A stretch of 64,000 nt of DNA from Phenylobacterium zucineum HLK1 (GTDB lineage Bacteria > Pseudomonadota > Alphaproteobacteria > Caulobacterales > Caulobacteraceae). Below the pieces are notes generated by a model. That model was given only the letters and a program-made list of their open reading frames with translations, was not told where the DNA came from and did not search any database. The stretch is from positions 2,520,001 through 2,584,000 of the forward strand of contig NC_011144.1 of the NCBI RefSeq assembly GCF_000017265.1, written 5' to 3'. This document shows, piece after piece, positions 2,258 through 23,912 of this stretch; the first letter of the stretch is position 1; each line of letters starts with the position of its first letter. Made by a program: the position numbers and the translations under genes.

Positions 2258-2393
2258 GCACCCGCAGGCGCCGGTTCTTAAGGTTATGCGCCTACCCCGA
2301 ACGCGCCGGACATAGGGCCGCGGCGGGGGCGTTCCCGGCCGGGCGCTCCGGCGTATGGTCTGCGAATTCGGAAGGTTAGGCGGAGTGCGACGC

Positions 2394-4331
2394 ATGGAGC
2401 GTGTGGCTTTCCGGGCCCAGACCGTCGTCGCCGACGTCGCTCTCGCCGCCCTCGCCTTCGCCCTGGCCTTCATCGTCGCGCGCACCCAGCCCGTCTTCGC
2501 GCTCGACGACCTGCCGCTGACGCGGTTCCTGCAGCTCACCTTCGTCTACGGCGCCATCGCCGGCGTGTTCGCCCTGCTCTTCCGGCGCGAGCTCTCGCCC
2601 TGGCGCTACGTCTCGATCCCCGACGTCCTCGTGCTGGCGCGCAGCGCCCTGCTGACGGTGGGCGTCTTCCTGCTGGGCGTCTTCGTGCTGAACCGGGCCC
2701 AGGGCCTGCCCCGCTCGGCGCTGTTCATGGCGCCGATGTTCCAGATGGTCTTCTCCATGGGCGTGCGGATCGTCCGCCGGGCGCTGCACGAACACGCCCT
2801 GGACAGCTTCTCGCCGCTCAAGACGGTCACCGACCGGATGGCCCAGGCGCCGACCCTGCTGCTGATCGGGCCGCCCTCGCTGGCCGACACCTACCTGCGC
2901 GACGTCGCGCGCAGCCACGACCGCACCTACACGCCCGTGGGCATCGTCACGACCGAGAAGCGCGACGTGGGCCAGCAGGTCCGCGGCGTCTGCATCCTCG
3001 ACACCCTGGAGCGGCTGGACGAGGCCCTGGCCGAGCTGCGCCGCTGGAACCGCTACCCGCGGGCGATCCTGTTCCTCGAGGAGCCGGCGCGCCTGAAGGG
3101 CCTCACCGCCGACCAGCTCGGCCGGCTGAAGAACGACGGCATCCGCCTGCTGCGCCTGCCGTCCATCGTCGAGCTGCCGCAGCACGACAGCGTCACCCTG
3201 CTGCCGATGCGCGACATCAACATCGAGGAGCTGCTGGCCCGCGACCCCATCGAGCTGGACCGGGGGGCGATCGCCAAGCTGATCCGCGGCCGGCGCGTGC
3301 TGGTCACCGGCGCCGGCGGCTCGATCGGCGCCGAGCTGTGCCGCCAGGTGGCCGCCTTCGACTGCGCGCACCTGACCCTGCTCGACATCTCCGAGACCGC
3401 GCTGTTCGAGATCGAGCGCGAGATGCGCGAGACCTTCCCGCACATCCCGCGCAAGGCGGTGCTGTGCGACGTCCGCATCGCCCACAAGCTTGAGGCGGCC
3501 TTCCGGGCCGAGGCGCCCGACCTCGTCTTCCATGCGGCGGCCCTGAAGCACGTCTCCATGGTCGAGCAGCATCCCAGCGAGGGCGTGCTCACCAACGTCA
3601 TCGGCACCTGGAACGTGACCGAGGCGGCCAAGGCCTGCGGGGCCGGCCAGATGGTGCTGATCTCCACCGACAAGGCCGTGGACCCGTCGAACGTGATGGG
3701 CGCCACCAAGCGGCTCGCCGAGGCGGTGATCCAGGCCCAGCAGTCCAGCGCCAAGGGCACGCGCTTCTCGGCCGTGCGCTTCGGCAACGTCCTGGGCTCG
3801 GCCGGATCGGTGGTGCCGATCTTCAAGTCGCAGATCGAGCGCGGCGGGCCGGTCACCATCACCCATCCCGAGATGGAACGGTTCTTCATGACCATTCCGG
3901 AGGCCGCGCAGCTGGTGCTGCACGCCACCGCCACCTCGGCCGAGGGCGAGGCGCGGGACGCCCGGCTGTTCCTGCTCGAGATGGGCGAGCCGGTGCGGAT
4001 CATGGATCTCGCCCGCCAGATGATCGCCCTCTCCGGCCGCACCCCCGGCCGCGACATCGAGATCGAGATCACCGGCCTGCGTCCGGGCGAGAAGCTGACC
4101 GAGGCCCTGCTGGACGAGACCGAGAGCGCGGTCCCCTGCGCGCCCAAGGTGCTGGAGGTGATCACCAACTCGGCCCTGCGGGTCACCCCGGGACACCTGG
4201 CCGAGCTGGAGGCCCTGGCCAGCCGCGGCGCCGTGGACGAGGTGCGCGCCGCCCTCTTCGCCCTCGTGGCCCAAGTCCGCGGCGAGAAGCCGGGCGGCGC
4301 CCCCAACCTGCGGGTCATCGCCGGCGGCTGA
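2394..4331 (+). CDS. Membrane nucleotide-sugar 4,6-dehydratase, CapD/FlaA1/WbpM family
   Basis: A large polysaccharide biosynthesis enzyme. The N-terminal ~130 residues hold about four hydrophobic segments, then a CoA-binding-like Rossmann domain, then the extended SDR catalytic domain with GAGGSIGAEL near residues 305-313. The active-site motif STDKAVDP followed by NVMGATKR has Met in place of the usual catalytic Tyr, the Ser-Met-Lys type known for long WbpM/PglF C6-dehydratases that convert UDP-GlcNAc to its 4-keto-6-deoxy form. I chose ATG 2394 (645 aa) because GGAG lies 8 bases upstream; ATG 2355 is in frame but has no ribosome site. Expected role: 6-deoxy-sugar supply for O-antigen, capsule or glycolipid. 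Confidence 0.88.
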   Translation: MERVAFRAQTVVADVALAALAFALAFIVARTQPVFALDDLPLTRFLQLTFVYGAIAGVFALLFRRELSPWRYVSIPDVLVLARSALLTVGVFLLGVFVLNRAQGLPRSALFMAPMFQMVFSMGVRIVRRALHEHALDSFSPLKTVTDRMAQAPTLLLIGPPSLADTYLRDVARSHDRTYTPVGIVTTEKRDVGQQVRGVCILDTLERLDEALAELRRWNRYPRAILFLEEPARLKGLTADQLGRLKNDGIRLLRLPSIVELPQHDSVTLLPMRDINIEELLARDPIELDRGAIAKLIRGRRVLVTGAGGSIGAELCRQVAAFDCAHLTLLDISETALFEIEREMRETFPHIPRKAVLCDVRIAHKLEAAFRAEAPDLVFHAAALKHVSMVEQHPSEGVLTNVIGTWNVTEAAKACGAGQMVLISTDKAVDPSNVMGATKRLAEAVIQAQQSSAKGTRFSAVRFGNVLGSAGSVVPIFKSQIERGGPVTITHPEMERFFMTIPEAAQLVLHATATSAEGEARDARLFLLEMGEPVRIMDLARQMIALSGRTPGRDIEIEITGLRPGEKLTEALLDETESAVPCAPKVLEVITNSALRVTPGHLAELEALASRGAVDEVRAALFALVAQVRGEKPGGAPNLRVIAGG

Positions 4332-11856: not shown

Positions 11857-12873
11857 TTGGCGATCCTGGTCACCGGCTCGGCCGGCTTCATCGGCTTCCA
11901 CCTGAGCCGCCGGCTGCTGCAGCGGGGCGAACAGGTCATCGGGGTCGACAACCTCAACGCCTACTACGATCCCAGCCTAAAGGCGGCGCGCCTGGCGCTG
12001 CTGGAGGCCGAGGCCGGCTACCGCCACGCCCGCATCGACCTCGCCGACCGGGAGGCCATGGCCGCCCTGTTCGAGGAGACGCGCCCCGATGGGGTGGTGA
12101 ACCTGGCCGCCCAGGCCGGCGTGCGCTACAGCCTCGAGAACCCCGCCGCCTATGCGGACTCGAACGTGGTGGGCTTTCTGAACGTCCTGGAAGGCTGCCG
12201 CGCCGTGCAGCCCAGACATCTCGTCTACGCCTCCACCAGCTCGGTCTACGGCGCCAACGGCAAGCTGCCGTTCAGCGTCCACGACCACGCCGTCCACCCG
12301 ATCACGCTCTATGCGGCGACCAAGCTGGCCAACGAGGCCATGGCCCACGCCTACGCCCACCTATTCGGCGTGCCGTGCACGGGCCTGCGCTTCTTCACCG
12401 TCTACGGTCCCTGGGGCCGCCCCGACATGTCGCCGTTCAAGTTCCTCTCGGCGATCCTCGAGGGTCGGCCGATCGACGTCTACGGCCAGGGCCGGATGCA
12501 GCGGGACTTCACCTACGTCGACGACATCGTCGACGGCGTGATCGCCGCCCTGGACCGCCCGGCGCAGGCGAATCCTGAGTGGGATCCGCAGCGGCCCGAT
12601 CCCGCCTCCAGCGGCGTGGCTCCCTGGCGCATCTACAACATCGGGGCCAGCGAGCCGGTCGAACTGATGCGCTACATCGAGACCTTCGAGCGCAAGCTGG
12701 GCTGCAAAGCGAAGCTCAACCTGATGCCGATGCAGCCGGGCGACGTCGTCAGCACGGCCGCCGACGTGAGCGAGACCGTCCGGGACCTCGGCTATCGCCC
12801 GACCACCTCCATCGAGGAGGGCGTCGGCCGCTTCGTGGACTGGTACCTCGACTACTACGGCAGCAAGGCCTAG
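11857..12873 (+). CDS. NAD-dependent nucleotide-sugar epimerase, UDP-glucuronate 4-epimerase-like
   Basis: A 338-aa extended SDR with GSAGFIGFH at the N-terminus, the STSSVYG block and catalytic YAATK (Tyr152, Lys156). The GRPDMSPFKF stretch is typical of bacterial UDP-GlcUA 4-epimerases (LspL/CapI type) that make UDP-galacturonate for capsule or LPS. The only in-frame start that fits the fold is TTG 11857, directly before the nucleotide-binding strand (MAILVTG). It follows the WaaE-like glycosyltransferase by 79 bases, consistent with envelope glycan synthesis. Confidence 0.88.
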   Translation: MAILVTGSAGFIGFHLSRRLLQRGEQVIGVDNLNAYYDPSLKAARLALLEAEAGYRHARIDLADREAMAALFEETRPDGVVNLAAQAGVRYSLENPAAYADSNVVGFLNVLEGCRAVQPRHLVYASTSSVYGANGKLPFSVHDHAVHPITLYAATKLANEAMAHAYAHLFGVPCTGLRFFTVYGPWGRPDMSPFKFLSAILEGRPIDVYGQGRMQRDFTYVDDIVDGVIAALDRPAQANPEWDPQRPDPASSGVAPWRIYNIGASEPVELMRYIETFERKLGCKAKLNLMPMQPGDVVSTAADVSETVRDLGYRPTTSIEEGVGRFVDWYLDYYGSKA

Positions 12874-16700: not shown

Positions 16701-16777
16701 ACAAACAAAAAGCCGCGCCTTTCGGCGCGGCCAGTTAGGGAGGAAACGCCCCTAAGGGCAGGACCACCTAGACCAGC
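16701..16777 (-). ncRNA. Candidate trans-acting small RNA with UUUCCUCCCU core (alpha-r8/MmgR-like)
   Basis: On the minus strand a roughly 75-nt transcript would hold a short hairpin GCCC-UUAG-GGGC, the unpaired 10-mer UUUCCUCCCU (16737-16746), and a perfect 8-bp terminator stem GCCGCGCC / GGCGCGGC (16712-16731) followed by UUUUUGUUUG. From memory, this exact 10-mer between two hairpins is the signature of the alphaproteobacterial MmgR/alpha-r8 (Rfam suhB) sRNAs; it is anti-Shine-Dalgarno-like and would pair with mRNA ribosome sites. It lies 100 bases after the manC fusion gene and has its own promoter-like sequence. It may alternatively be a processed 3' tail of that operon. Confidence 0.68.
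16712..16731 (-). terminator. Rho-independent terminator of the small RNA and possibly the glycan operon
   Basis: Perfect GCCGCGCC / GGCGCGGC stem with a 4-base loop. On the minus strand it is followed by TTTTTGTTTG. It would end both the small RNA and any read-through from the manC fusion gene. Confidence 0.85.
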
Positions 16778-16877: not shown

Positions 16878-19034
16878 TCATCCGGCGCGGCCGGTCAGCT
16901 CCAGCACCGCCATGGTCAGGTGGTACAGCGAGGTCGCCGGCGCCGGCTCGTCCACGAAGCCGCCGTCGGGCCGCAGCTTGTCGCGCCAGGCGCCCCGGGC
17001 GGGGGTCTCCAGATAGCGCGCCAGCCCCCGCGCGGCCGAGATGGCGTCGGCCTCCTCGCCCAGCAGGACGGCGGCCTTCAGGCGCTCGGTCTGAGGCCAC
17101 AGGCGTGCATAGCCGTCGCGCACCGCCAGGTCGTCCCACAGGGCGTTGACCGCCACCTCGCGCGAGGCGTCGACGCCCGCCCGGCCGACCTCGTAGAGGC
17201 GGCGCGCCGTGTGCAGCCCGCGCTCGGCGCCGCGGGCCCGGCCCCAGCGCTCCAGCAACCAGGCCCATTCGAACTGGTGCCCCGGCTCCACCAGGCCCGC
17301 CTCGCCCGTCAGAGGGGCCCAGCCCGCGTCGAAGAACTCGCGCAGCACGCCGCTGTCGGGATCGATGAACCGCTCGAGGGCGAGATCGGCCACCTCGTCC
17401 GCCAGCCGCCCCCAGCCGCCGTCGGGCTCCACCGCCTCCCAGGCGAGGGCCGCCTCGAAGAGGTGCATGTGGGCGTTGGCCTGGTAGGGCTGGGGCCCCG
17501 CCTCGCGGAAGCCGCCGGCCGGATGGCGGAAGATCTCCAGGGCCGCGCGGGCGCGGGCGCCCTCGGTCCGCCAGCGGGCGTCCCCGGGCTCGGCACGGGC
17601 GAGCGCGCTCAGGGCCAGCAGCAGGAAGGCGTGCTCGTACAGGCAGGCGGTCTCGTCCAGCGGCGCGCCGTCCACGGTCAGCACCGACACCGTCCGCCCG
17701 TCCTTGCGCAGTCCCCGGGCGGCGTAGAACTCCCAGCCGCGCTTGGCGACCTCCAGCCAGGGGCCGGGGGCGCCGATCGCCGCCGCCGTGGCGAAGACGA
17801 AGACCTGCCGGGCCTGGGTGCGGGCGCGCCGCCGCGGGTCGACCGCCTCGCCCTCGGCGGTCAGCGCCTCGCGGAAACCGCCGTTGACGGGATCGGCCCC
17901 CAGGGTGCTCCACAGCGGCAGGGCGGCGGTGCGGAACCACAGGTCGTACCAGTCGGCGGCGGCCTCCAGGGTGGTGAAGCGCCGGCCCCGGCCGCCGGGC
18001 GGGGCCGCGGCCGCCGCGGCCTTGACGTCCTGGCTGGCGGCGAGGTCGCAGACCAGCACCACGTCCGGCTCGACGATCACCGCCAGGTTGGAGGCGCCGA
18101 CCACCGCCACGTGCAGGTCGTCCGAGGCCCGGACCAGCAGGTCGCGCGCGCCCACCGCCTGCACGTTGCCGCTCAGGCTGTTGCCGTCGGCGTCGCGGTC
18201 CGAGCCCGCCAGGACCGCGTCCCACGCGCCGACGTCCGACCATTCGAAGGCGACCGGCAGCACGGCGGCCCGGGCGGTCTTCTCCATCACCGCGTAGTCG
18301 ATGGATATCTTCGGCGCCTGGCGGAACGGCCGGCCGAGGATCCAGGCCGCGCCGTTCGCTTCCAGGTCGGCGACCCCGGCCCGCGCGGCCTTCGCCACGC
18401 CGGGCGCATGGGCGCCGAGCTCGTCCATCAGCGTCCGCGCCGTGGCGACGAAATTGCCGCTGTTCCACAGGTAGCCGTCCGCCACATAGGCCCGGGCCCG
18501 TTCGGCGTCGGGCTTCTCGACGAAGGCCGCGACCGGCTTCACGGCCTCGGCCCCTGCGCCCGGCCGGATGTAGCCGTAGGCCGTGGCGGGCTCGGTCGGC
18601 TCTACGCCCAGCGTCACGACCGCGCCCTCGCAGGCCGCCGGCAGGGTCTGCGCCACGGCCGCACGGAAGGCGTCGGCGTCGGGGATGTGGTGGTCGGCCG
18701 AGACGATGACCGCCACGGCGTCCGGATCGCGCGCTTCGATCCAGGCGCAGGCCGCGGCGATGGCGGCGGCCGAGTCCCGCGGCTCAGGCTCCAGCAGCAC
18801 CACCGCCTGTCCGCCGATCTCGGCAAGCTGGGCCTCGATGAGGGCCTGGTGGGCGATCCCCGCGACGACCAGCACGGGGCCGGCCTCGGCCAGCGGCGCC
18901 ACCCGGACCAGCGTCTCCTGGAAGCTGGAGCGGGCCCCGGTCAGCGGAATGAACTGCTTGGGCCGCCAGGGGCGCGAGGCCGGCCACAGCCGCGTCCCCG
19001 ACCCGCCGCACATGATCACCGGATAGACGGCCAC
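16878..19034 (-). CDS. Fused mannose-1-phosphate guanylyltransferase / AGE-type sugar isomerase
   Basis: A 718-aa two-domain enzyme. Residues 1 to about 345 are a ManC guanylyltransferase with GGSGTRLWPAS and FVEKPD, making GDP-mannose. Residues about 355-718 are an (alpha/alpha)6-barrel of the N-acylglucosamine 2-epimerase family (QARQVFVFATA, YEHAFLLLALSAL, NAHMHLFEAAL, PGHQFEWAWLL, with the His residues of the active cleft). In AGE proteins of this kind the domain acts as a phosphomannose or mannose isomerase, so one polypeptide may run fructose-6-P to GDP-mannose in cooperation with a mutase. Usual ManC fusions carry a cupin isomerase instead. GTG start 19034 follows a GGGGGAGGGG stretch. 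Last gene of the operon, 27 bases after the glycosyltransferase. Confidence 0.88.
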   Translation of the reverse strand: MAVYPVIMCGGSGTRLWPASRPWRPKQFIPLTGARSSFQETLVRVAPLAEAGPVLVVAGIAHQALIEAQLAEIGGQAVVLLEPEPRDSAAAIAAACAWIEARDPDAVAVIVSADHHIPDADAFRAAVAQTLPAACEGAVVTLGVEPTEPATAYGYIRPGAGAEAVKPVAAFVEKPDAERARAYVADGYLWNSGNFVATARTLMDELGAHAPGVAKAARAGVADLEANGAAWILGRPFRQAPKISIDYAVMEKTARAAVLPVAFEWSDVGAWDAVLAGSDRDADGNSLSGNVQAVGARDLLVRASDDLHVAVVGASNLAVIVEPDVVLVCDLAASQDVKAAAAAAPPGGRGRRFTTLEAAADWYDLWFRTAALPLWSTLGADPVNGGFREALTAEGEAVDPRRRARTQARQVFVFATAAAIGAPGPWLEVAKRGWEFYAARGLRKDGRTVSVLTVDGAPLDETACLYEHAFLLLALSALARAEPGDARWRTEGARARAALEIFRHPAGGFREAGPQPYQANAHMHLFEAALAWEAVEPDGGWGRLADEVADLALERFIDPDSGVLREFFDAGWAPLTGEAGLVEPGHQFEWAWLLERWGRARGAERGLHTARRLYEVGRAGVDASREVAVNALWDDLAVRDGYARLWPQTERLKAAVLLGEEADAISAARGLARYLETPARGAWRDKLRPDGGFVDEPAPATSLYHLTMAVLELTGRAG

Positions 19035-19061
19035 GCCGCGCCCCTCCCCCTCGCCGAACCG

Positions 19062-19862
19062 CTAACTAACCCGAGGCGGGTTGAATCGGCCAAGGCAGAC
19101 TAGGGCCAGCGTGCGCAGAAGCGCGATCTCGCCCTGGAACGGCTTGATCTTGGTGGGCGTCTTCTCGTCCTTGGGATAGCGGCGGGCGGTCGGCAGTTCG
19201 AGGCAGCGGAAGCCCAGGCGCGGCGCCCGGTAATTCATGTAGGCCAGGAGCTCGTAGTCGCGGAACTGCGGCCGGAAGATCGCCATCCGCGGGTCCTCCA
19301 GCAGCCGGCGGCTGTAGGCGCGGAAGCCCTGGGTGGTGTCGGTCCAGCGGAAGCCCGAGGCGAGGCTGAGGGCCGGCGCGTGGATCAGGCGGATGGCCAG
19401 GTCGCGCAGCCAGGGCGTGTTCTCGGCCACGCCGCCCTTCACGTACCGCGAGGCCTGCACGAAGTCCCAGCCGTCCTTCAGCGCCTGGACGAAGGCCGGA
19501 ATGGCGTCGGGATCGTCCTTGTTGTTGCCGTCGATGGTGACGACGCCGCGGTAGCCCTGGTCCAGGGCGAAGGCGTAGGCGCACAGGAGCTGGGCGCTGA
19601 GCTTGCCGGGGCCGGTCTTGCGCACGAGGCCGGCCACCTGGGCGGCGTCGAGGCGCGCCGGAGCCAGGGAGCCGTCGGTCGAGCCGCCGTCCACGATGAC
19701 GATGTCGGCGATCTCGGCGATGCCCAGGGCGCTCATGCGCGACAGCAGGCGGCCGATCCGTTCGCCCTCGTTGATCACCGGAATGACGACGCAGTGGTCC
19801 TTGGAGCGCCCGCGCCAGCGCTCCACCACATGCTCGGGGACGTGGTCGCGGCCGGGGGTCAC
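19062..19862 (-). CDS. Family 2 glycosyltransferase, polyprenyl-phosphate mannose synthase-like
   Basis: A 266-aa GT2 with VIPVINEGERIGRLL, IADIVIVDGGSTDGSL and VTIDGNNKDDPDAIPAF, the last in place of the DXD metal site, followed by ASRYVKGG and TDTTQGFRAYS as in dolichol/polyprenyl-phosphate mannose synthases. No C-terminal membrane helices are evident. The start GTG 19862 overlaps the stop codon of the upstream small membrane protein (GTGA). Next to a GDP-mannose-forming fusion, mannose is the likely donor sugar; the acceptor (carrier lipid or glycan) is inferred only. Confidence 0.82.
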   Translation of the reverse strand: MTPGRDHVPEHVVERWRGRSKDHCVVIPVINEGERIGRLLSRMSALGIAEIADIVIVDGGSTDGSLAPARLDAAQVAGLVRKTGPGKLSAQLLCAYAFALDQGYRGVVTIDGNNKDDPDAIPAFVQALKDGWDFVQASRYVKGGVAENTPWLRDLAIRLIHAPALSLASGFRWTDTTQGFRAYSRRLLEDPRMAIFRPQFRDYELLAYMNYRAPRLGFRCLELPTARRYPKDEKTPTKIKPFQGEIALLRTLALVCLGRFNPPRVS

Positions 19863-20212
19863 GCTGGGCCCCGCGCCAGGGCCAGGGCCACGATGCCGGC
19901 CAGCAGCAGCGAATAGCCCAGCCAGTGAAGCGGCGTGAACGCCTCGCGCATCATGAGGGCCGAGGCCGCGCCCACGACCACGATGGCTCCGGCCGTGGCG
20001 ATCGGATGGGCGACGTTCAGCGGCAGGCGGGTCACGGCCGCGGCGTAGGCCAGGAACGCCACGCCGTAGCTCGCCGCCGCCAGCCACAGCCGCCAGTTGG
20101 CCGCCAGGGCCATGGGGTCGGACAGCGTCAGCGGCCCGTCCGAGCTCAGCTTGACCAGCACGCTCGCCGCGGCGTTGGCGAGGATCCCAACGACGATCAG
20201 CAGCCAGGTCAC
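19859..20212 (-). CDS. EmrE/ArnE-like small four-helix membrane protein (EamA superfamily)
   Basis: A 117-aa protein with four transmembrane helices (WLLIVVGILANAAASVLVKLS, then three more) and the conserved ASYGVAFLAYAAAVTRLPLNVAHPI segment of small multidrug-resistance-fold proteins. Within glycan clusters such proteins (ArnE/ArnF) flip lipid-linked sugars. It is linked to both neighbours by GTGA overlaps, so it is translated with a TIM-barrel isomerase and a glycosyltransferase, which favours flippase over drug efflux. Starts with GTG 20212. Confidence 0.82.
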   Translation of the reverse strand: MTWLLIVVGILANAAASVLVKLSSDGPLTLSDPMALAANWRLWLAAASYGVAFLAYAAAVTRLPLNVAHPIATAGAIVVVGAASALMMREAFTPLHWLGYSLLLAGIVALALARGPA

Positions 20213-21021
20213 GCCGGCGCCCCGTAGGCCGCTTTCGCGACCGCCACCGCCCGGGCGAGCGCCTGCCGGTGCGGCTCGGCGGCCGCCGGCGCCATCTCGA
20301 CCGTGACGGTGAGCTCGGGCCGCGCGTTTCGCAGGGCCGCGGCCGCGGCGGCGTGCGGCGCGCCGGCGTCGCCAAGCGGGACGAGGCCAGGCTCGCTGGC
20401 GTGGACGTGGCCGATCAGCTCGGCGTGGGCGGCGATCACCTGGGCGGGATCCTCGCGGTTGGCGGCGATGGCGCCGACGTCCAGCTGCAGCCGGATCGCC
20501 GGATGGTCCACGGACCGGACCACCTCGGCCGTCTCGGCCGTGTCCGTCATGAAGTTGCAGCCGTAGATGACGGGATTCGGCTCCAGGCAGACGAGGACGC
20601 CGTTCTGCGCCGCCGCGTCGCCCAGTCGGCGGAAGAACTCCACGGCGATCCGGCGGGCCGCGCCGTCGTCGAGGCCGCTGCGGTCGCGGTTCTTCGGCGA
20701 GCCGAAGGTGAGCGCGCGCGCGCCGAGCAGGCCGCCCACCCGGCACAGCGCCGAGAGCCGGGCCAGCATCGCCCCGTCGTCGGAGAAGAGATTGAGCCCG
20801 CTCGTGCCGAACAGCAGGCTCTGCATGCCGACGACGCTGAAACCTCGGTCGGCCCACCACCGGCGCACGCGCTCGGCGTCGGCCCCGCTCACCTGCGCCG
20901 GATCGGCGAAGTACTTGCCGGGCGCCACGTCCACCTGATCCACGCCCGCGGCGGCCAGCAGGTCGGCGGCAGCCGGCTCCTCGGCGAGATCCCAGGCGAT
21001 GTTGGAGACCGAGAGGCGCAC
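20209..21021 (-). CDS. Sugar phosphate isomerase/epimerase family TIM barrel
   Basis: A 270-aa protein of the xylose isomerase-like / AP endonuclease 2 TIM-barrel family. Metal-ligand carboxylates expected of the family are visible: Glu in VCLEPNP, Asp in RLQLDVGAI, His/Glu in HVHASEPG and Glu in VTVEMAP. Such enzymes isomerise or epimerise free or modified sugars using a divalent metal. GTG start 21021, one base after the upstream stop, so it is coupled to the reductase gene. Specific substrate unknown; the context suggests a sugar made in the same operon. Confidence 0.82.
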   Translation of the reverse strand: MRLSVSNIAWDLAEEPAAADLLAAAGVDQVDVAPGKYFADPAQVSGADAERVRRWWADRGFSVVGMQSLLFGTSGLNLFSDDGAMLARLSALCRVGGLLGARALTFGSPKNRDRSGLDDGAARRIAVEFFRRLGDAAAQNGVLVCLEPNPVIYGCNFMTDTAETAEVVRSVDHPAIRLQLDVGAIAANREDPAQVIAAHAELIGHVHASEPGLVPLGDAGAPHAAAAAALRNARPELTVTVEMAPAAAEPHRQALARAVAVAKAAYGAPA

Positions 21022-21022
21022 G

Positions 21023-21817
21023 TCAGGCCCCGGGCGTGGAGAGGGGTTTGGAGGGAGGCTCGGACTGGGCGTAGGCGCGGATGGCCATCAGGCTCTCGCG
21101 CCGGGCGTACTGGTAGGCGCCCTGCCCGCCGAACAGCGCCGCGTGCCGGGTGCGGAAATCGTAGGCCGCAGGCGACCGTCCCTCCACAACGTTGTCGAAC
21201 CGCCGCCCGAAGCCCTCCTGCGCCACCTCGGCCATCGACAGCGGTTCAGCCGTCAGGTGGACCAGCCGCAGCCCGGCGGCCAGCGCGGTTTGCAGGTCGG
21301 CCCACAGGTTCACCATCGGATAGAACTGGTAGACGCTGCGCGCGTCGATGACGTGCAGGTTGTTGTCGTTTCGCAGGTCGAACACGGCGTTCTTGCGCAG
21401 GCCCGGCCCGACCAGCCCCGGCAGCCGCACGATCAGGGCGCCCGGGAAGCGCTCGGCGACCTGCTGCTCCAGCCAGCGGCGATGACGGCCGTAGGCGCCG
21501 GGCGCCTGCGCGTCCGGATCCGCGTCCTCGTCCGCGCCGCGGCTGTCGGCGAAGACGTCGACCGTGCTGATCAGGATCACCTGCCGCGCCTGGACCTGCT
21601 CCAGGTGGCCCATGAGGGTCTCCAGCGCGGCGCGGTCGGCCTCGGGCTCCTTCTCGGCGAGCCACTTCTGGGCGGGCGCCCCGGCGCAGACCAGCAGGTC
21701 GAACGCCTGCCCGCGGATCTCGGCGATGTCCGTGGATCGGTAGGTCTGCTGGAAGCTTCGCTGGCGCAGCAGCGTCTGGCCCACATAGCCGCTCCAGCCG
21801 ACGAGGGCGTCGCTCAT
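21023..21817 (-). CDS. NAD(P)-dependent epimerase/reductase, short extended-SDR type
   Basis: A 264-aa protein with a shortened Rossmann start ALVGWSGYVGQTLL instead of the usual GxxGxxG, then LISTVDVFAD in the position of the catalytic Ser/Thr strand and YGRHRRWLEQ with the YxxxR/K-type helix. It continues with LPGLVGPGLRKN and FYPMVNLWAD. This looks like an RmlD/GalE-style reductase, divergent at the cofactor loop. It starts at ATG 21817 inside the ATGA overlap with the FAD oxidoreductase, so the two are likely made in equal amounts and act in sequence. Confidence 0.75.
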   Translation of the reverse strand: MSDALVGWSGYVGQTLLRQRSFQQTYRSTDIAEIRGQAFDLLVCAGAPAQKWLAEKEPEADRAALETLMGHLEQVQARQVILISTVDVFADSRGADEDADPDAQAPGAYGRHRRWLEQQVAERFPGALIVRLPGLVGPGLRKNAVFDLRNDNNLHVIDARSVYQFYPMVNLWADLQTALAAGLRLVHLTAEPLSMAEVAQEGFGRRFDNVVEGRSPAAYDFRTRHAALFGGQGAYQYARRESLMAIRAYAQSEPPSKPLSTPGA

Positions 21818-22902
21818 GCCGGCAGCTCCTCCGCCTCCAGGCGCTCCAGGACGTCGAAGACGTTGTCGATCTTGCCGCCCAGCACGCTGAACACCCGCCC
21901 CTCGTGGCCGTGGCGGCGGAACAGGATCGGCCGCCCGTCGTCGCCCTCGTTCGCCGTCAGCACCGTCTTCACCGTGAACAGCGAGCCCTCCACCGTGCTG
22001 CGCGCCAGCCCCGGCGCATAGCGCGCGGCGTCCCGCAGCATCCGGTCCACGCGGCTTTCCTTCGCATAGGCGTCCAGCACCGCATAGGGATCGCGCTCGC
22101 CCGCCTCGGCCCAGCTCAGGTGCGGCGTGTAGCGGACATGGGACAGCGAGTGCAGCCCCCGGGCGGGGAACGGCATGCACGAGAAGAACGGCCCGTCCAT
22201 CACGGTGACGCCCAACCCCTCGAACTCCGGCGGCGGGCGGACCAGCGCCAGCTCGGTGATCTCGTGCTTCAGGCCGAAGGGCGGCGCCTCCGGCCCGGCC
22301 AGCCGCTGCAGCCGCGCATAGGTGCAGTTGAACACCACGCCCGCCGGATGGTGTTCGCCGCCCGCCGCGACCGTGAGCCCGTCCGGCGCGGCCTCGACCG
22401 AAGTCACCTCCAGCCCGGTGCGCACCTCGACGCCCGCGTCCCGCAGCAGCCGCTCCGCCGCCCGGGCGAGCTTCGCCGCGTCGAAGGCGCTCTCCTCGAC
22501 GAGATAGGCCTGGGCGACCAGCCTGGGATCGAACAGGCGCGCCACCTGCGGCGGGGCCGGATCCAGCGGCGCCCCGATGTCGGCGCAGAAGCGCTCCATC
22601 TGGCGCGGGGTGACCTTCGAATTGCGCCGCGCGAGCGCGTAGACCGCCTGGAAGGGCGTCGTCGCCTCGCCGAAGGCCTCGACGAACCGCGGATAGTTCA
22701 CCCGGCTGCGGTAGGCCGTCGTGAAGCTGCGCGGATAGTGGTAGCCGCTGTGCACCCGGGCCTGGTTGACCAGGGAGGCCCGGCCCAGCAGCTCTGGGGC
22801 CGCCTCGAAGAGCCTGACCGTCCCGACCCCGCGCCGGGTCTTCAGGTAGGCGGCGATCATCGCCCCGTAGAAGCCGCCGCCCGCCACGATGGCGGTGGTC
22901 AT
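21814..22902 (-). CDS. FAD-dependent oxidoreductase, DAO family
   Basis: A 362-aa flavoenzyme. N-terminal AIVAGGGFYGAMIAAYL is the FAD dinucleotide-binding loop, VRLFEAAPELLGRASLVNQARVH places the Glu that binds the FAD ribose, and GVVFNCTYARLQRL and VFSVLGGKIDNVFD are the later FAD contacts. The DAO fold oxidises C-N or C-O bonds of small substrates. It sits between a carrier-lipid glycosyltransferase and a NAD(P) reductase with 4-base overlaps on both sides, which suggests oxidation of a sugar hydroxyl followed by reduction (net epimerisation or deoxygenation). That role is inference. Confidence 0.82.
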   Translation of the reverse strand: MTTAIVAGGGFYGAMIAAYLKTRRGVGTVRLFEAAPELLGRASLVNQARVHSGYHYPRSFTTAYRSRVNYPRFVEAFGEATTPFQAVYALARRNSKVTPRQMERFCADIGAPLDPAPPQVARLFDPRLVAQAYLVEESAFDAAKLARAAERLLRDAGVEVRTGLEVTSVEAAPDGLTVAAGGEHHPAGVVFNCTYARLQRLAGPEAPPFGLKHEITELALVRPPPEFEGLGVTVMDGPFFSCMPFPARGLHSLSHVRYTPHLSWAEAGERDPYAVLDAYAKESRVDRMLRDAARYAPGLARSTVEGSLFTVKTVLTANEGDDGRPILFRRHGHEGRVFSVLGGKIDNVFDVLERLEAEELPA

Positions 22903-23912
22903 CCCGCCCCCTGCCGGACCGCGGGCCGGCGCGGCCCGGCCTCGACGTTCAGCCGCGTGCGCCGCGTCAGCACCGCGCTCGTGTGCTCCCCGGCCAGGTA
23001 GTAGGAGGGCCCTTCCAGCGTCCAGGACAGCACCTGGGCGACGTATTCGACGAGGATGAACACCACCAGCGACAGCAGGAAGAACATGCCCGACTGCTGC
23101 AGCGACAGCGTCGTCCAGCCGGGCATGACGTCCGACTTGAACAGCCGGATCAGGATCACGTAGCCGGAATAGATCAGGTTCAGCGTCGCGCCCGTGATCG
23201 CCAGGGCCGAGGCGATCCGCAGCGGCAGGGTGGTCTGGGAGAACAGCAGGTTGAGACCCCGCCGGGCCTTGCTGCGCAGGCTGGTGCGCGGCTGAGGCCG
23301 CCGGGGTCCTTCGTAGTCGATCGCCGCCTTCGGAAAGCCCGCCAGCGCCGGCAGCGCCCGGTAGCGCAGGCCGGGCTTCGGCTGCTCCAGCAGGAAGCTC
23401 ACCACGCGCTTGCTGATCAGCCGGCAGCTCGCCCCCTCGACCTCCAGGTCCACGCCCACCAGCCGGCGGAAGACCCCGTGGAACAGCCGGTCCAGCATTC
23501 GCTCGGTCCCGGACATCGGCTTGGGCGTGGTGTTGCGGACGGTGACGAGGTCCGCCCCCTCGGCGATCTTCTCCAGGGCGCGGGGCAGGAACGAGAGGTC
23601 CTCGTTCAGCGGGTCCAGCACCAGCACGTAGTCGCCCAGCGCGTTCTCGACGCCGGCCCAGACGGCGATCTCGAGGTCGACGGCGCGGATCAGCCGGTAG
23701 ATCTGCAGGTTGGGCAGCCCGCCCTCCTGCACGAGGTCCGCATAGTCGCGCACCGAGCCGTCGGTCGAACCGTTGTCGACGATGACCACCTCGAAGTCCT
23801 CGACCTGGGCCGCCAGCTCGGCCACCAGCGGCTCGACGAGCGCGCGGGCGCGCCCCGCCACGTTGCGCAGCGGCACGACCACGGACAGAAGGATCGGATA
23901 GCGCTCCGGCAC
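22899..23912 (-). CDS. Family 2 glycosyltransferase with C-terminal membrane helices, GtrB/ArnC-like
   Basis: A 337-aa GT2: LSVVVPLRNVAG, VVIVDNGSTDGSV and LVLDPLNEDL form the nucleotide-sugar site, and two transmembrane helices near residues 235-260 and 275-300 match the polyprenyl-phosphate glycosyltransferase layout (GtrB, ArnC, DPMS). It would load a sugar on undecaprenyl phosphate at the inner face of the membrane. I chose GTG 23912 because GGGGAG lies 7 bases upstream; GTG 23936 is in frame but lacks a ribosome site. First gene of the seven-gene minus-strand operon. Confidence 0.85.
   Translation of the reverse strand: MPERYPILLSVVVPLRNVAGRARALVEPLVAELAAQVEDFEVVIVDNGSTDGSVRDYADLVQEGGLPNLQIYRLIRAVDLEIAVWAGVENALGDYVLVLDPLNEDLSFLPRALEKIAEGADLVTVRNTTPKPMSGTERMLDRLFHGVFRRLVGVDLEVEGASCRLISKRVVSFLLEQPKPGLRYRALPALAGFPKAAIDYEGPRRPQPRTSLRSKARRGLNLLFSQTTLPLRIASALAITGATLNLIYSGYVILIRLFKSDVMPGWTTLSLQQSGMFFLLSLVVFILVEYVAQVLSWTLEGPSYYLAGEHTSAVLTRRTRLNVEAGPRRPAVRQGAG

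Follow-up and report, generated by a model that had tools for sequence, protein, structure and literature searches.

We analyzed a 64,000-nucleotide stretch of Phenylobacterium zucineum HLK1 (contig NC_011144.1, positions 2,520,001 to 2,584,000), hereafter the window, in which an operon of seven genes occupies positions 16878-23912 on the minus strand. In the direction of transcription, the genes are GT2a (22899..23912), which encodes a family 2 glycosyltransferase (GT2) of the GtrB fold with two C-terminal transmembrane helices, its DxD motif lost (DP-LNED); DAO (21814..22902), for an FAD-dependent oxidoreductase of the DAO superfamily and proposed ring-hydroxyl oxidase; RED (21023..21817), for a small Rossmann, SDR-like protein that is related to RmlD, has YxxxR instead of YxxxK, and is the proposed NAD(P)H keto-reductase; TIM (20209..21021), for a TIM barrel of the AP_endonuc_2 family that is proposed to epimerize the carbon adjoining the ketone; SMR (19859..20212), for a four-helix SMR protein of the lipid type and proposed flippase; GT2b (19062..19862), for a soluble GT2 resembling dolichol monophosphate mannose synthase (DPMS) and proposed polyprenyl-phosphate hexose synthase; and ManC-AGE (16878..19034), a housekeeping gene for sugar supply that joins a mannose-1-phosphate guanylyltransferase to an N-acylglucosamine 2-epimerase-type (AGE) domain. 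GT2a, TIM, SMR, GT2b and ManC-AGE start with GTG. The GT2a/DAO, DAO/RED, TIM/SMR and SMR/GT2b junctions are 4-bp overlaps, RED and TIM are separated by 1 bp, and 27 bp lie between GT2b and ManC-AGE. The operon of seven genes, six of them tightly coupled, that had been described in the original prediction, a reading of the sequence alone, was thus confirmed. Its family assignments for all seven genes were also supported by Pfam (reporting level for the window proteins, E 0.001) and NCBIfam, with weak matches for SMR and RED.

GT2a, DAO, RED, TIM, SMR and GT2b constitute a widespread mobile bacterial cassette. Scanning 84,980 species genomes with the DAO alignment yielded 80 loci, which, being found through DAO, are not independent; 64 of them have at least 6.5 kb of flank on each side. 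The order GT2a-DAO-RED-TIM-SMR-GT2b is repeated, at 42-70% identity, in Sphingomonas, Paraburkholderia, Azoarcus, Pseudomonas, Bordetella, Cupriavidus, Nocardioides and others. The genes overlap or nearly touch in distant genomes, and in some Pseudomonas DAO is followed by an inserted gene for a membrane protein. A looser core, consisting of DAO, RED, TIM, GT2b and a GT2a-like gene, was found in Saccharibacteria (TM7), Gemmataceae (Planctomycetes), Clostridia and one cyanobacterium. RED and TIM are both present at 59 of the 64 loci (adjacent at 57), GT2b at 58, and GT2a or a divergent cousin from the same sequence cluster at all 64; DAO adjoins the membrane GT2a in most loci. Co-occurrence of the redox pair with a GT2 in other genomes, on which the original prediction had made its model depend beforehand, was therefore what we observed. 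Because the loci had been chosen through DAO, we also used a count at the genome level. DAO relatives are rare (7/199 genomes of the family and 12/200 of the order), and the 10 genomes of the order's 200 that contain RED all fall among the 12 with DAO (hypergeometric 3e-15, shared ancestry ignored). Judged by gene order, the clustering of the six genes is not chance, since it recurs in unrelated genomes and a prophage and is found reordered on a plasmid. Across the 80 scanned loci, the cassette has neither a conserved nucleotidyltransferase nor a conserved dehydratase. Recurrent neighbor families that ran antisense to genes of the cassette were regarded as shadow open reading frames and set aside.

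The cassette was also found on mobile elements. A P2-like prophage (IMGVR_UViG_2903814385_000001; L156:6937-13631) carries the six genes in the window order, 48-66% identical, with genes for tail sheath, tape measure and further tail proteins to one side of them and a CI-type repressor to the other, and with a GT-C glycosyltransferase gene on the opposite strand. A slot of this kind, with late tail genes and the CI repressor as its neighbors, is typical of lysogenic-conversion genes. The 10.8-kb Psychrobacter plasmid pA22P4 (NZ_MN657058.1; L153:2336-8624) carries replication and mobilization genes and, beyond these, cassette functions only: RED-TIM-SMR-DAO, one open frame in which GT2b follows GT2a, and a membrane protein of 479 residues whose sequence SLWTDEAM is GT-C-like. 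No nucleotidyltransferase is present. The plasmid record annotates only the 3' part of the shared frame; absence of GT2a from this plasmid was considered and rejected, as GT2a is the 5' part. On a Cereibacter plasmid, RED-TIM-GT2a-DAO-GtrA is found with a GT2b fused to a PMT_2 domain. Two Pseudomonas loci (L038:8967-14962 and L039:8964-13203) keep GT2a-DAO, with GtrA in place of SMR, an aldo-keto reductase in place of RED and TIM, and another GT2 in place of GT2b; this variant would be a simpler, oxidize-reduce version. Carriage by a prophage and a small plasmid suggests a role in serotype conversion. A further phage contig (L157:6827-13307) contains a 37%-identical DAO relative among genes that, named from sequence only, are aminotransferase-like, oxidoreductase-like and glycosyltransferase-like.

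Both GT2a and GT2b match Glycos_transf_2 in Pfam. The best solved relative of GT2a is sll0501 GtrB (E 9e-40, full-length alignment), and GT2a also matches phrog_841 (GtrB-like, O-antigen conversion; 4e-25). The DAD of sll0501 GtrB aligns to DP-LNED in the window protein, and across 82 relatives the columns at the DxD site are variable and the conserved GtrB motif is absent. For GT2b, the nearest solved relative is DPMS (5mlz, 5e-12); the residues aligned to the D-x-D-x-Q metal site of DPMS read D-G-N-x-K-D, and DGNxKD is found in 76 of 82 relatives. GT2a has lost DxD, GT2b keeps DGNxKD, and the active carrier-lipid transferase is likely GT2b and not GT2a, to which that role had originally been given. 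GT2a is probably a GtrB homologue without DxD that acts as a membrane partner of both GT2b and DAO. Its partnership with GT2b is suggested by the fusion of the two in the single frame of the Psychrobacter plasmid (L153), and gene order suggests that it also serves DAO. GT2b is fused to GT-C-type membrane domains at three other loci (L025, L068 and L154). At the family level, the polyprenyl-phosphate sugar synthase of a three-component glycosylation system is present, in the DPMS-like GT2b and the GtrB fold of GT2a. A conserved DxD-less GtrB partner would be a pseudo-glycosyltransferase open to testing.

SMR gave no Pfam match at E 0.001 and matched NCBIfam ArnE at 3.5e-7, well below the cut-off of that model. 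Its N13 is invariant in 10 aligned sequences and takes the place that the central Glu occupies in drug/proton SMRs. Lipid SMRs often carry Asn in place of this Glu (PMC9574504), and because of the replacement we assigned SMR to the lipid type, as a candidate carrier flippase. The original description of an EmrE/ArnE-like protein recalling the ArnE/ArnF flippases thus holds at the family level. The window operon and its relatives have a single SMR gene, with no two-gene pair of the ArnE+ArnF type. The flippase of a three-component system is likewise present at the family level, as SMR or, in relatives, as GtrA in its place. GtrA is fused to a polytopic membrane domain in relatives, and a polytopic protein adjoins or lies within the cassette at 53 of the 64 loci. 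One such membrane protein, of the L036 type, has no Pfam match. The top Foldseek match of its predicted structure (pLDDT 76.6) was ArnT bound to undecaprenyl phosphate; protein O-mannosyltransferases led a second structural list (Z 17.1, 348 residues, 4.5 A), in which the listed matches were GT-C glycosyltransferases and a related GPI-transamidase subunit. This protein is predicted to fold as a GT-C enzyme. The relatives of the cassette point to decoration of periplasmic, O-antigen-type glycans by GT-C enzymes, and we saw no evidence for lipid A or a hopanoid, which had been suggested as acceptors.

Among the three remaining proteins, DAO matches PF01266 (1e-19), and the best structural match of its model (pLDDT 94.5) is E. 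coli GlpD (Z 31.3, 341 residues, 2.9 A). N46, Q47, R49, H51, G53, H55 and Y56 are kept in 95 of 96 relatives. No FAD_binding_4 or ALO match, and hence no VAO-type FAD domain, was found in the Pfam search, which agrees with the proposal that the oxidase belongs to a family unrelated to DprE1, the flavin oxidase of a known carrier-linked system discussed below; solved DprE1-type structures were not among the listed fold matches, a result that alone excludes nothing. TIM matches PF01261 (AP_endonuc_2; 2e-19) and, among solved structures, D-tagatose 3-epimerase (5e-13) and 3-keto-D-glucoside 4-epimerase (6wn6; 2e-10). E147, D181, H207 and E242, which supply the two Glu, the Asp and the His of the catalytic/metal site, align to 8xix and are invariant in 85 of 85 relatives. 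By these matches, TIM belongs to the superfamily of ketose 3-epimerases and 3-keto-glucoside 4-epimerases, with all four catalytic residues kept, which suggests that DAO oxidizes, TIM epimerizes and RED reduces. The only Pfam match of RED is RmlD_sub_bind (4e-4, below cut-off), and comparison to the PDB yielded dTDP-4-dehydrorhamnose reductase (8e-5). Of 84 relatives, 83 retain its nucleotide-binding GxxGxxG and all 84 have S84, Y109 and R113, so that the Ser and Tyr of SDRs are kept in a YxxxR arrangement. By analogy with YcjQ/YcjR/YcjS, oxidation, epimerization and reduction would be the simplest scheme for the three proteins; it would alter the carbon beside the ketone, unlike DprE1/DprE2, and perhaps the ketone carbon too. 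With TIM as a core member, the DprE1/DprE2-like pair of the original prediction becomes this three-step scheme. The carrier-lipid GT2, the redox enzymes and the lipid-type SMR do lie in one conserved unit, as that prediction had it; the enzymes are not a pair, and their action on a carrier-linked sugar is kept here as a proposal.

ManC-AGE, which had been included in the unit, matches GlcNAc_2-epim (5e-63) and NTP_transferase (2e-35) in Pfam, and this genome has no other ManC or AGE match. The gene was rejected as a defining part of the cassette: 29 of 30 congeneric genomes have matches to it, and a ManC relative lies near only 2 of the 80 cassette loci, in TM7 (L077) and Cycloclasticus (L074). 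Two relatives that lack the cassette at this place have similar chromosomal surroundings of ManC-AGE. Because the gene is genus-wide and its surroundings are kept in these cassette-free relatives, the cassette was probably acquired at a site upstream of a housekeeping gene for GDP-mannose. Mannose, from GDP-mannose, is a plausible starting sugar. Genus-wide, ManC-AGE occurs as the fusion or as its two halves. It is apparently the sole source of GDP-mannose here, and its AGE half may do the work of a phosphomannose isomerase. In TM7 oral taxon 352 (L077:4321-12192), which belongs to the Saccharibacteria, a group with reduced genomes, DAO, GT2a, GT2b, RED, TIM and the ManC-like gene are found together.

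The reading that we favor, with modest confidence, is that the six-gene cassette produces an unusual lipid-linked sugar donor, which is remodeled while bound to its carrier and then flipped for use in a surface glycan. GT2b, aided by the membrane-bound, DxD-less GT2a, would transfer a hexose (here perhaps mannose) onto polyprenyl phosphate. On the carrier, at the inner membrane face, DAO, using FAD, would oxidize one of the ring hydroxyls to a ketone, TIM would invert the carbon beside the ketone, and RED would reduce the ketone with NAD(P)H to give a rare epimer. Through SMR, the lipid-linked sugar would reach the periplasmic side, and a GT-C glycosyltransferase would place the modified sugar on the surface glycan. 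What the data show is the content and order of the genes, their conservation and that of catalytic residues, the fold families, the swaps and fusions, and the GT-C partner of relatives; we infer each catalytic step, which sugar is involved, that the events follow this order on the carrier, and which GT-C serves this genome. Chemistry on a carrier lipid is proposed because GT2b is DPMS-like, GT2a is GtrB-like and SMR has the lipid-type Asn; because relatives swap parts for the same presumed role (GtrA for SMR); and because GT2b and GtrA are fused to GT-C-type or polytopic domains and the partner without a Pfam match is modeled as a GT-C.

Several observations weigh against this reading. The structural neighbors of DAO include amino-acid oxidases (glycine oxidase and sarcosine oxidase) as well as L-2-hydroxyglutarate dehydrogenase, and since amino-acid oxidases are also close, the fold does not name the substrate of DAO. 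Reductase activity of RED is uncertain, given its YxxxR. The window operon contains no GT-C, and searches of the P. zucineum genome with two cassette GT-Cs were empty, which is not proof of absence; two PMT_2 proteins are encoded elsewhere in this genome, unlinked to the operon. At two loci from the family of the window (L030:3535-6241 and L031:9611-12510), RED and TIM lie beside a distant DAO, with no GT2 detected nearby. Finally, we infer that DAO, TIM and RED act on the lipid-linked form, and the data would look much the same if remodeling came before loading.

Such prior remodeling is the substance of a soluble route, which we consider unlikely, if far from negligible. In it, DAO, TIM and RED would work in the cytoplasm on a nucleotide sugar, or on a sugar that is free or phosphorylated, before GT2b loads the finished product; flipping and GT-C transfer are shared with remodeling on the carrier, and only the order of steps differs. 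ArnC/ArnE-type systems load a pre-made sugar, and this general pattern favors the soluble route, as do the relationship of RED to RmlD, a nucleotide-sugar reductase, the action of TIM relatives on free ketoses, and the position of ManC next to the operon. However, it is opposed by the lack of any conserved nucleotidyltransferase or dehydratase (ManC is near at 2/80 loci, L077 and L074, and the Psychrobacter plasmid is without any) and by the placement of DAO beside the membrane GT2a in most loci. Moreover, we know of no DAO-type flavin oxidase that acts on nucleotide sugars.

It is improbable, in our judgment, that the redox enzymes modify a residue in a growing lipid-linked glycan or glycolipid (an undecaprenyl-pyrophosphate oligosaccharide, lipid A or a hopanoid), with the polyprenyl-phosphate sugar as a separate branch. 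Cassettes are often part of polysaccharide loci that also encode ABC exporters and further glycosyltransferases, and the absence of a GT-C from the window operon would also fit, but no other glycan genes were detected near the plasmid and prophage units, in which DAO, TIM, RED, SMR, GT2a, GT2b and GT-C are nevertheless together. Catabolic or unrelated chemistry, with DAO as an amino-acid or hydroxy-acid oxidase like its structural neighbors (glycine oxidase, sarcosine oxidase and L-2-hydroxyglutarate dehydrogenase), TIM and RED degrading sugars in the manner of YcjQRS, as the likeness of TIM to catabolic epimerases might suggest, and the glycosyltransferases as mere neighbors, is very improbable given that RED and TIM accompany DAO in 59/64 loci and GT2b does so in 58/64, that fusions and swaps are confined to glycosylation parts, and that the cassette has no uptake transporter.

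Remodeling on the carrier lipid, the reading preferred here, shares its logic with DprE1/DprE2 and DPPR synthase, in which a flavin oxidase and a reductase act on a polyprenyl-carried sugar, with a proposed SMR-family flippase and GT-C users (PMC11127046). The cassette differs in that its oxidase is DAO-type and not VAO-type, and its reductase is RmlD-like with YxxxR, not adh_short with YxxxK. It uses GT2 synthases instead of a UbiA-type DPPR synthase, has an additional TIM-barrel epimerase, and is expected to act on a hexose and not a pentofuranose; Pfam found no UbiA-type phosphoribosyl synthase among the seven operon proteins. Carrier-linked epimerization is also found in the three-component O-antigen side-chain system of Citrobacter youngae O2, in which ORF12-15 convert undP-Ribf to undP-Xylf, with GT136 (PMC11127046); there, a single GalE-like SDR with YxxxK epimerizes, and the synthase is UbiA-type and the flippase MATE (PMC11127046). 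GtrA/GtrB/Gtr cassettes for O-antigen conversion have in common with ours a GtrB-fold protein, a GtrA or SMR flippase, a GT-C user and carriage by temperate phages, whereas the six-gene cassette adds three remodeling enzymes and a second, DPMS-like GT2, and its GtrB homologue lacks DxD. The interconversion of D-gulosides and D-glucosides by YcjQ/YcjR/YcjS likewise proceeds by oxidation, epimerization with an AP_endonuc_2 barrel and reduction, but is catabolic, acts on soluble glycosides and involves no lipid carrier, flippase or DAO-type oxidase. The ArnC/ArnE/ArnF/ArnT pathway for lipid A aminoarabinose shares GT2 loading of undecaprenyl phosphate, an SMR lipid flippase and a GT-C user; there, in contrast, the sugar is first made in nucleotide-bound form and then loaded, the SMR is a two-gene pair, and DAO and TIM enzymes are lacking.

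The known carrier-linked remodelers, DprE1/DprE2 and the SDR ORF13, both act on pentofuranoses, and the authors of the ORF13 study state that they are not aware of further epimerases in systems for O-antigen side chains (PMC11127046). In the open-access literature, subscription journals not being covered, we found only pentofuranose work and no earlier description of the cassette, which appears to be undescribed so far. We regard it as close to an even call, though slightly short of one, that the cassette represents a third, unrelated solution to carrier-linked remodeling: a mobile unit, spread by temperate phages and plasmids across many bacterial phyla, in which a DxD-less GT2a would offer a hexose on polyprenyl phosphate to a flavoenzyme resembling GlpD, a TIM barrel of the ketose-epimerase type and an SDR-like protein with YxxxR, giving rare hexose epimers for O-antigen-type conversion. 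If so, sugar remodeling on carrier lipids would be a general strategy that extends beyond pentofuranoses and employs unrelated enzymes and hexose-type synthases. Unrecognized rare hexoses would then be predicted in many surface glycans, and the cassette would be a marker for finding them.

Two minor features of the window complete the picture of the locus. A terminator-like stem-loop with a 9-bp stem and a T run follows ManC-AGE on the minus strand (16711..16732); two terminator-like sites were found against 2.0 expected in shuffles, so that this is weak evidence for the stem at 16732-16711. Upstream, 2355-4331 encodes a CapD/FlaA1-type protein (Polysacc_synt_2) and 11857-12873 a nucleotide-sugar epimerase, and the region is therefore rich in glycan genes.

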